Assembly (NCBI GenBank): GCA_018714445.1
Contig: DVNK01000032.1
Coordinates: 18,157-82,156, forward strand
DNA: 64,000 nt
Reading direction: 5' to 3'
Origin: Candidatus Fimadaptatus faecigallinarum
Lineage (GTDB): Bacteria; Bacillota; Clostridia; Christensenellales; Aristaeellaceae
This document shows positions 36,037 to 53,712 of the stretch, piece after piece. Positions within the stretch are counted from its first letter, which is position 1. Every line of letters starts with the position of its first letter. Under the pieces are notes generated by a model, which was given only the letters and a program-made list of their open reading frames with translations, was not told the DNA's origin and did no database searches. The position numbers were made by a program, and so were the translations under genes.

Positions 36037-36183
36037 AACTTGAGCAGCCCCCTTTCGCATATCGCCCTTGCGGGCAACCTGCGCGCGCCCGGCGATCGCG
36101 GGCCGCGCCCGAAACTCGGAGGCATACAAAAACACGCCCCCGATGCTTCTCAGAGGCGTGAAAAGACGGCAAACAAACTGCTG

Positions 36184-36382
36184 CTCTTCTCTCATCCAGA
36201 CTCACCGGACCACCTGTCCGATACACTGTCGGCTCCGGAATCGCCAGATTGCGCCTTGCTGCCGCGCGTTCCTTTATCGAACGCCGGGAGCCGGGTACGC
36301 ATACTGATCGCTGACCGGATCTGCGCGCATGCACGCTCGCGGGCTACACCGCCGGTGGGGCTTCGCACCCCGCCCTGAAGAT
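36184..36382 (-). ncRNA. FMN riboswitch (RFN element)
   Basis: Minus strand CTTCAGGGCGGGGTGCGAAGCCCCACCGGCGGT...GGACAGGTGGTCCGGTGAGTCTGGATGAGAGAAG. Confidence 0.96.
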
Positions 36383-36499
36383 CGCACTGGAACTCGTCGT
36401 TCCATCTACAATTATATGCATACCCCGCCTCAGCTGCAATGCATTGGCGTTATGAGCATGTAAATTTATTTTTACATGGCGTCATGCCACGCCGCCACG

Positions 36500-50576: not shown

Positions 50577-50691
50577 GTTCCAGCCCGTGCTTTTTCATGT
50601 ATCATATTTAGTTTGTATCCGAATATTAGGTTGGACGCGCCGCCCGGCAATGGTACAATCGCCTAAAGTACACGGTAAGGCGGTGCGCCAT

Positions 50692-51243
50692 ATGGACGAA
50701 ATAATCTGGAATATAGATTGCGCCACGCTGCCCACGGTCACGCGGCACTGCAAAAAGTGCGGCAAACTGCGCGCATTCGAGTGCTCGGGCTGCTTCCGGG
50801 TCAACGCGCAGAAGCGGCTGATGGATGTGTGGCTGATATACAAGTGCCCCGAATGCGACGACACCTGGAACCTGCCGGTGCTCAGCCGCGTGTCGCCGCA
50901 GGCGGTCCCGGCAGCGTTGCTGGCGGGCTTCCACCGCAACGACGCGGCGCTGGCACGCAGGTACGCATTGGACGGCGAACTTATGCGGCGCAGTGGTGCC
51001 GCGCTTGACATGCCCGAGCTGCGCGTGACCGGCGTCACGCCGCCCGCAGGCCAGCGCGTCACAATGGCGCTGACGCCCGAATGCGCGCTGCCGGTGCGCG
51101 TGGCGGCCGTACTGCGCATGGGGCTGAGACTGAGCCGCAGCGAGTTTGAGCGCCTGGTCGCAGACGGCCGTATACGTGCTCACGGCGGCGACGTACTGCG
51201 CATGAAGCTGGGCAGTGGCGCACGCGTGGACGTCGAGTTATGA
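50692..51243 (+). CDS. DUF1062-like zinc-binding protein
   Basis: HCKKCGKLRAFECSGCFRVNAQKRLMDVWLIYKCPECDDTWN; S4-like C-terminus. Confidence 0.75.
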   Translation: MDEIIWNIDCATLPTVTRHCKKCGKLRAFECSGCFRVNAQKRLMDVWLIYKCPECDDTWNLPVLSRVSPQAVPAALLAGFHRNDAALARRYALDGELMRRSGAALDMPELRVTGVTPPAGQRVTMALTPECALPVRVAAVLRMGLRLSRSEFERLVADGRIRAHGGDVLRMKLGSGARVDVEL

Positions 51244-51266: not shown

Positions 51267-51800
51267 GGCGCCGGGCTTGGCAATATCGCCAGCTTTATCC
51301 ACAGCTCCAAGTTGCAAGTCAGATACGGCTTGCCGATCTAAGCCGTTTTAACTGATATGGATCGCCTGACCCAGCCATATCGCCGACTTTGTCCACAGCT
51401 CAAAGCTGCAAGTCAGATACGGCTTGCCGGTTTAAGCCGGTTTAGCTGTTATGGCGCCGGGCTTGGCAATATCGCCGGCTTTATCCACAGCTCCAAGCTG
51501 CAATTCAGATACGGCTTGCCGGGCTAAGCCGGTTTAACTGATATGGCGCCGGGCTTGGCAATATCGTTGGCTTCGTCCACAGCTCCAAGCTGCAAGTCAG
51601 ATACGGCTTGCCGATCTAAGCCGGTTTAACTGATATGGATCGCCTGACCCAGCCATATCGCCGACTTTATCCACAGCTCCAAGCTGCAATTCAGATACGG
51701 CTTGCCGGGCTAAGCCGGTTTAGCTGTTATGGCGCCGGGCTTGGCAATATCGCCGGCTTTATCCACAGCTCCAAGCTGCAAGTCAGATATGGCGTGCCCT
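51267..51800. repeat. intergenic tandem repeat, 91-94-bp unit, 6 copies, each with a DnaA-box-like sequence
   Basis: tccacagct at 51298, 51392, 51485, 51576, 51670 and 51762; preceded by TTA (exact TTATCCACA) in copies 1, 3, 5 and 6. Confidence 0.95.
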
Positions 51801-51917
51801 CCAAACCAAAATAAACGACATGAGCCGCCGGTAAAAACCGACGGCCCCAATATTAATATATCGCCGGCGACAGTCATATTTGCTCCATTGTGCGCCTATG
51901 ACTCTGCGCGTGCGCCA

Positions 51918-53609
51918 TCACTGCGCCTTGAGCGCACGCAACCGGCGCGCAATGTCGAAGTACTCTCGCTCCAGCTCCTCGCGCTGGTCAGCAGACAGTC
52001 CCTTGCCATTCAGCCGCGCGTCTATCGCGGCCATGCGCATCCGGAGCGTGTCCGCGCCCAGCTCGACCTGCTGGCGTGCGCGCTCGGCCTGTTCGTCCCG
52101 TATCGCGCGCTTTGCCTCGTAATCGGCCAGCGTGCCTTCAAACGCCGCCAGCGTACCGCCTTCAATTACCAACAGCCGCTGCGCTATGCCGCTCACAAAG
52201 CGCCGGTCATGGCTGACCATTAACAGCGTGCCCGCGTACTCGCTCAGCAGCTTCTCCAGCGCCTCCAGCGCAAACACGTCCAGATGGTTCGTCGGCTCGT
52301 CGAGTATCAGCAGATTGCTCTCGCTCAACAGCAGCCGCGCCAGCTCAACCTTGACCCGCTCGCCGCCCGACAGCACGCGCACAGGTTTAAATACGTCGTC
52401 CGCGCCCAGCATCAGGTTGCTGAGCACCGAACGCGCCACGCTCTGCGGCAATGCGCTGTCGGCCATGGCGTTTTCAAGCGCGGTCGCATCCATGTCCAGC
52501 GTGCGCTCGCTGAGCTGACTGAAGTAACCTATCTTCACGCCCGGACTGAGCCGCACGCCGGGCGCGCCGTCGACCAGTCGGCCTATCAGCGTAGTCTTGC
52601 CGCAGCCATTTGCCCCCATTAACGCGGTGCGACTGCCCGTGGGCAGCGCGAAGTTCACATCCCGCACCAGCACTCGTCCCGGCACGTCCAGCTTCAGATG
52701 CTTGACCTCCAGCGCGCGCCGGCTGACCACGCCGCCCGCCGCACCCAACTTCATGCTGACCGCGGGCAGATCACGCGGGCGCTCCTTGCGCTCAAGCTGA
52801 TCCAGTCGCGTGCGCATCGCCGACGCCGACTTGTGCAGCTTTTCCTCGACCTCGGTCGCACTGCGCTTGTGCAGGCGCGCCTCGGAGTTGCCCATGCGCG
52901 TGGGGAGTTTGGTGCGCCTGGCGCGACGCTCGCGGGCGTCTATCGCCTCGGACAGGCGGGCGCGTTCGCGCTGATAGCTGTCGTATTCGAACTGCTGGAA
53001 CTCGCGCCGGCGATGCTTTTCGGCCATGTAGTCGGAGTAATTGCCGGGATACATGGCAATGTGCGCATCCTCCAGCTCGGCTATCGACGTGCACAGCGCG
53101 TCCAGCAGCGCCCGATCATGGCTTATCAGCAGCAGCGCGCCGTCGAACGCCTTGAGCTGGCGCATCAGTTCGTCCACACCCTGTGCATCCAGGTCGGTCG
53201 TGGGCTCGTCGAGCATCAGCAGCCGCGGATGCTGAGCCAGTGCGCCGGTTATGCGGCGGCGCGTGCTCTCGCCGCCCGACAGCCCGCCATGCAGCGCGCC
53301 GGTCTTGAAGCGCGAGCTCAGCTCGCCCGCCGCAGCCAGGTCGACCTGTACGCCCTGCTCGTCCATAGCTGCAGCGTATTCCTCGCCGCTGCCGAACTGT
53401 GGCACCAGCGCTATCGGGCAGTTCACAGTCACATGACCCTGGTCAGGCGCGCGCCGGCCCGCCAATATGCCCATAAGCGTCGACTTGCCCGCGCCGTTTT
53501 CGCCGACCAGGCCTATCCGATCGCCATCGTATATCGTAAACTCGGGCACGTCCAGCACCCGTCTATCCGCAAAATCCTGTATTATCTCACTCGCCTGCAA
53601 AAGCAGCAT
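51918..53609 (-). CDS. ABC-F family ATP-binding protein (Lsa/Vga/Msr-like or translation-factor type)
   Basis: Two ABC domains: GLVGENGAGKSTLMGIL, GLSGGESTRRRITGALAQHPRLLMLDEPTTDLD, LMGANGCGKTTLIGRL, LSGGERVKVELARLLLSESNLLILDEPTNHLD; no TM segments. Confidence 0.92.
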   Translation of the reverse strand: MLLLQASEIIQDFADRRVLDVPEFTIYDGDRIGLVGENGAGKSTLMGILAGRRAPDQGHVTVNCPIALVPQFGSGEEYAAAMDEQGVQVDLAAAGELSSRFKTGALHGGLSGGESTRRRITGALAQHPRLLMLDEPTTDLDAQGVDELMRQLKAFDGALLLISHDRALLDALCTSIAELEDAHIAMYPGNYSDYMAEKHRRREFQQFEYDSYQRERARLSEAIDARERRARRTKLPTRMGNSEARLHKRSATEVEEKLHKSASAMRTRLDQLERKERPRDLPAVSMKLGAAGGVVSRRALEVKHLKLDVPGRVLVRDVNFALPTGSRTALMGANGCGKTTLIGRLVDGAPGVRLSPGVKIGYFSQLSERTLDMDATALENAMADSALPQSVARSVLSNLMLGADDVFKPVRVLSGGERVKVELARLLLSESNLLILDEPTNHLDVFALEALEKLLSEYAGTLLMVSHDRRFVSGIAQRLLVIEGGTLAAFEGTLADYEAKRAIRDEQAERARQQVELGADTLRMRMAAIDARLNGKGLSADQREELEREYFDIARRLRALKAQ

Positions 53610-53626
53610 AATAAAAACGCCTCTCT

Positions 53627-53712
53627 CCGCCTGCCGGAAAGACGCGCGCATACTGATCCCGCCCGAAGGCGCGGCTATTTCATGGCCAGCGCAAAGCGTC
53701 TTTCAGGCAGGA
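53627..53712 (-). other. long inverted repeat in ABC-F 5' leader
   Basis: cctgccggaaagacg / cgtctttcaggcagg, 14 of 15 pairs. Confidence 0.7.

Follow-up and report, generated by a model that had tools for sequence, protein, structure and literature searches.

A private tandem array with one DnaA-box-like site per unit in a minisatellite-rich bacterial genome

The window analyzed here is a stretch of 64,000 nucleotides (C9:18157-82156) from a genome, G000, of 2.62 Mb in 65 contigs. In this window, a DUF1062 gene (50587..51243, + strand; PF06353, 117 bits) and a gene for an ABC-F type ATPase (51918..53651, - strand; ABC_tran x2, ABC_tran_Xtn) converge on a gap of 674 bp that holds a tandem array. 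TRF placed the array at 51267..51798 (+ strand), with a period of 92, 5.7 copies and 84% matches, and described it also at a period of 278 with 1.9 copies and 94% matches, indicating a higher-order unit of 278 bp. The basic unit is 92-94 bp in length and occurs in six copies, and the spacers located 5' of the six boxes described below follow the order a-b-a-a-b-a, with type b including GATATGG..CCATATC. A first-pass annotation had proposed a six-unit array of about 93 bp, a trimeric higher-order repeat of about 278 bp, the same spacer order and a location between convergent DUF1062 and ABC-F genes, and all of these features were recovered. The array is noncoding, with no long ORF across it, and the ABC-F gene has a terminator-like hairpin (51822..51847, - strand; consensus match only), which lies between that gene and the array. 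The mononucleotide-shuffled window yielded no arrays at the same threshold. A query of the genome contig collection with the DUF1062 protein, aimed at orthologous loci, returned no match.

Each unit carries a single DnaA-box-like site, recognized by sequence match, and all six sites are on the + strand. Four have the form TTATCCACA (sites 1, 3, 5 and 6, at 51295..51303, 51481..51489, 51667..51675 and 51759..51767), while site 2 (51389..51397) is TTGTCCACA and site 4 (51573..51581) is TCGTCCACA. One box per unit in a uniform orientation had been noticed before, but at positions about 3 bp too far to the right. The boxes are separated by 94, 92, 92, 94 and 92 bp, or 8.8-9.0 turns at 10.5 bp per turn; the earlier estimate of about nine helical turns is thus close, but the boxes are not strictly in helical phase. 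As the six boxes represent one box multiplied by duplication rather than six independent events, their number alone is no evidence of selection.

The dnaA gene of this organism is located on contig C8, with dnaN adjoining, and its product has a canonical domain IV (FGGRDHTTVMHA); the closest named DnaA relatives are mainly from Clostridia and Bacilli, with 50-57% identity, which places the host in the Bacillota. The stretch of about 330 bp 5' of dnaA (oriC) contains TTTTCCACA, TTGTCCACA, CTATCCACA, TTATCCACA, ATATCCACA, CTGTCCACA and TCATCCACA. The genome-wide scan that the first-pass annotation had called for found TTATCCACA 36 times, compared with 4 times for the reversed word, a 9-fold excess. 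Because the boxes of the array take forms found in this dnaA-linked oriC, domain IV is canonical and TTATCCACA is so strongly overrepresented, the array should carry the form of box that this DnaA uses, which upholds the premise that the box suits this organism. DnaA binding to the array copies is plausible, and the array, like a DnaA-box cluster, groups several boxes of oriC form outside oriC.

Tandem arrays are abundant throughout this genome. A census of 860 kb (33% of the genome), with a period of at least 20 and a TRF score of at least 100, identified 146 arrays with a median period of 93 and a total coverage of 50 kb, which scales to approximately 440 arrays per genome, or about 170 per Mb. 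The units of the sampled arrays are nearly all private. A simple ORF caller classed 93 arrays as mostly noncoding and 45 as mostly coding, and the period is divisible by three in 38 of the 45 coding arrays, compared with 32 of the 93 noncoding ones, the latter being the third expected by chance. Arrays were found in 63% of the gaps of 500-800 bp and in 78% of longer gaps, and in 44% of convergent, 37% of codirectional and 14% of divergent gaps, a pattern that is expected of drifting DNA excluded from promoter regions. Since gaps above 500 bp are filled this often, and convergent gaps most often, an array in a convergent gap of 674 bp is expected. With head-to-tail units in noncoding DNA, and with a unit that is private to its locus and one among many in the genome, the window array is a minisatellite; others in the window lie, for example, at 680, 4628, 21503, 30161, 32767, 45628, 49649, 55453 and 58540. 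Array density was 13-21 per 100 kb in G000 versus 1 to 9.5 in sampled relatives of the family, and 50 kb of E. coli contained none. Loss of mismatch repair was considered as a cause of this richness and rejected, as the genome has a full-length mutS1. It also encodes an SbcC-like protein, which scores below the curated cut-off, as in most controls.

The near-consensus word YTRTCCACA occurs 104 times in the genome, compared with 26 times for the reversed word. Among the matches listed (100 of the 104, the other four lying on the last contigs), regularly spaced clusters occur at only three places, namely the window array and two arrays on contig C17, and these three hold 17 of the 104 boxes. At C17:22903-23360, a TTRTCCACA-like site recurs once per 64-65 bp (TRF period 128), and at C17:124057-124745 once per 135-bp unit (period 135); the regular box clusters within them extend over C17:22903-23299 and C17:124057-124739. 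The core common to all three is TTRTCCACA[AG]CT[CT], with RCTY following TTRTCCACA in nearly all copies. The shorter word TCCACARCTY, which was picked post hoc after the arrays had been inspected, has 34 copies in the genome, 16 of them within the three arrays, and in the sample no other word of its class with at most eight outside occurrences was present in three noncoding arrays. No clear homology beyond the core was detected between the window array and either C17 array, and common ancestry was rejected on the grounds that the alignment is limited to the box and a few adjacent bases; the two C17 arrays show at most a faint resemblance to each other, and the gene contexts of all three differ. 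A dispersed or mobile element was likewise rejected, given that the unit occurs once in the genome, is absent from the tested relatives and viral contigs, and that isolated TCCACARCTY sites have no further sequence in common. All three arrays agree in how their boxes are oriented to the GC skew; as a signal of replication direction this was discounted, because 25 of 31 boxes outside arrays (among the matches listed, on contigs whose skew is clear) are oriented likewise, which largely reflects strand composition. In addition, irregular, non-array clusters of DnaA-box-like sites, apparently intergenic and away from dnaA, were observed at C16:23424-23800 and C33:14107-14476, and these are closer to classical DnaA-box clusters than the window array is.

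How far three such arrays exceed chance was estimated in two ways. Words of equal intergenic frequency fell in a mean of 0.305 noncoding arrays per sample, or about 0.9 genome-wide, and the expectation without the oriC boxes is about 0.5 genome-wide, so that a single box-bearing array is unremarkable. The three arrays observed among the matches listed correspond to a nominal Poisson P of approximately 0.01 (0.5 expected) to 0.07 (0.9 expected), and a simple calculation based on the density of boxes and the length of the units predicted 1.4-2.6 arrays. Contigs C9 and C17 were chosen because they hold these arrays, which biases the box count in the sample, whereas the genome-wide box counts are free of this bias. 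The excess over chance is thus at most mild, and the test is post hoc.

Within the window array the conservation of the 9-mer box is average, as 56% of 9-column windows are conserved equally or better; its TCCACA core, which does not vary among the copies, falls within the best 22% of windows. In the C17 arrays, the 9-mer has window ranks of 0.09-0.40 and TCCACA has ranks of 0.11-0.14. Part of such conservation is built in, because box arrays were found through their repeated boxes. The unit of the window array has a single match in its own genome and is absent from 59 relatives, those listed including no second genome of this genus. Relatives were also scanned for sets of three boxes at regular spacing, using two period ranges in 120 genomes and one range in 308 genomes. 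Besides irregular oriC-type clusters or incidental matches, regular box arrays were found only in G009 and G081 (the matches from the 308 genomes having been inspected in part), and the reversed-word control, with a word several times rarer, gave none. The G009 array (contig C72, L105:12127-12915) consists of units of 175-207 bp, each with TTATCCACA and TTGTCCACA, in a genome poor in arrays (one in 94 kb), and G081 has two arrays with other box forms. Box arrays are therefore sporadic across the 120-308 related genomes and constitute neither a conserved locus nor a family trait; the conservation among relatives that would be expected of a DnaA-box cluster was not found for the window locus.

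Taken together, these observations are best explained if the array belongs to a large set of neutral minisatellites between genes and its box is a passenger, a reading that we consider probable. Several hundred intergenic minisatellites would have grown by repeated local tandem duplication, and in one of them the founder spacer piece would by chance have held a consensus DnaA box, which then multiplied along with the unit. DnaA is probably able to bind the copies, which would add six sites to the approximately 100 near-consensus sites of the genome, and the array would be neither built nor kept for replication control, with presumably little or no effect on the timing of initiation. The first-pass annotation had suggested a dedicated locus similar to datA or to the Bacillus clusters; the position of the array as one of about 440, the average conservation of its 9-mer, the absence of its unit from the 59 relatives and the sporadic occurrence of box arrays all speak against this suggestion, and the best fit is the alternative raised in the same annotation, namely that the repeat expanded for other reasons and took the box along as a passenger.

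An alternative hypothesis is that unrelated minisatellites are kept for the box in each unit and act as a DnaA sponge, sequestering the protein and restraining initiation in a manner comparable to the DnaA-box clusters of B. subtilis, with copy number as the tuning knob. The presence of the same extended box in three arrays of unrelated units, the match of their box forms to oriC, their share of the near-consensus boxes noted above and the G009 array, with two boxes per unit in a genome with few arrays, would all be consistent with such a role. Moreover, extra-origin clusters can matter for initiation in B. subtilis, in which the deletion of all six makes initiation early, an effect that is partly undone when one cluster is put back (PMC5295017). 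We nevertheless regard this hypothesis as doubtful, as chance is exceeded only mildly and in a post hoc comparison, the 9-mer in the window array shows no special conservation, the feature is not conserved in the family and the three arrays lie in different gene contexts. In addition, of the 269 DnaA sites of B. subtilis known in vitro, binding in vivo was seen at the eight strongest only (PMC4447404), so that most such sites stay unbound and binding alone is no proof of control. The more specific proposal, in which at least three unrelated arrays independently gained TTRTCCACARCTY once per unit and their fast-changing copy number sets the amount of DnaA held from oriC, appears unlikely to us. 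YabA was not found in the genome, which weakly suggests room for another brake, and our literature search yielded no example of DnaA titration tuned by repeat copy number.

Two other explanations dispense with selection on the box. The extended motif TTRTCCACARCTY might itself promote the birth or growth of arrays, if a bound protein or an obstacle to replication provoked local tandem duplication; the occurrence of one and the same 13-bp core in each unit of three unrelated arrays and the uniform box orientation relative to GC skew are compatible with this, but the orientation is largely accounted for by strand composition, almost all other arrays lack the motif, and most of its copies outside the three arrays sit in no array, which makes this explanation very unlikely. 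We consider it highly improbable that the array serves as an RNA or DNA structure, for instance as a sink for transcription between the convergent genes, with the box irrelevant. It is true that none of 100 dinucleotide shuffles folds as well as the + strand (z -3.0) and that a search for a + strand terminator behind the DUF1062 gene found none; however, tandem inverted repeats alone inflate fold scores, the - strand is weaker (z -1.9), the ABC-F gene has its own terminator-like hairpin ahead of the array, and arrays are common in codirectional gaps too. A structured RNA was rejected, as the array has no Rfam match and its fold z-scores are inflated by repetition. Elsewhere in the window, an FMN riboswitch was recognized at 36180-36386 (- strand; Rfam, 68.6 bits), which spans 207 bp against a model of 138 positions and contains a long insertion.

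On the sequence evidence, a replication-control role of the window array is thus possible but unproven, and a recurrent role is conceivable, given that the same extended box occurs in two unrelated arrays. Passenger boxes would call for caution, as motif clusters in minisatellite-rich genomes would arise by the copying of one chance site and should not be taken as regulatory clusters. If, instead, the three box arrays are under selection, they would represent a system that titrates DnaA and is tuned through the copy number of the repeats. Under either reading, the occurrence of a private minisatellite in most of the longer intergenic gaps of one bacterial genome merits study.

Among known systems, the DnaA-box clusters of B. 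subtilis are similar in that several near-consensus boxes are grouped outside oriC in a genome of the Bacillota (PMC5295017); they differ in being supported by deletion genetics, whereas the present DnaA-box-like sites lie in tandem copies of one unit, spaced at 92-94 bp, and are recognized by sequence. The datA locus of E. coli, which like the present array lies apart from oriC, holds five DnaA boxes within about 1 kb, a number similar to the six here (PMC5295017); it differs in that it requires IHF and promotes the hydrolysis of DnaA-ATP. A further comparison is with the prokaryotic satellites of Subirana and Messeguer (2019, PMC6749651), and it extends to the portions of that study considered here, which describe no units with one DnaA box each. 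In those portions, more than 4 satellites per Mb are reported for only 18 of 119 bacteria, whereas a rough re-implementation of the criterion gave approximately 95 per Mb in the G000 sample. Those satellites are likewise short, scattered arrays of long units that are private and unrelated, and the satellites of C. difficile are described there as unique and mutually unrelated.
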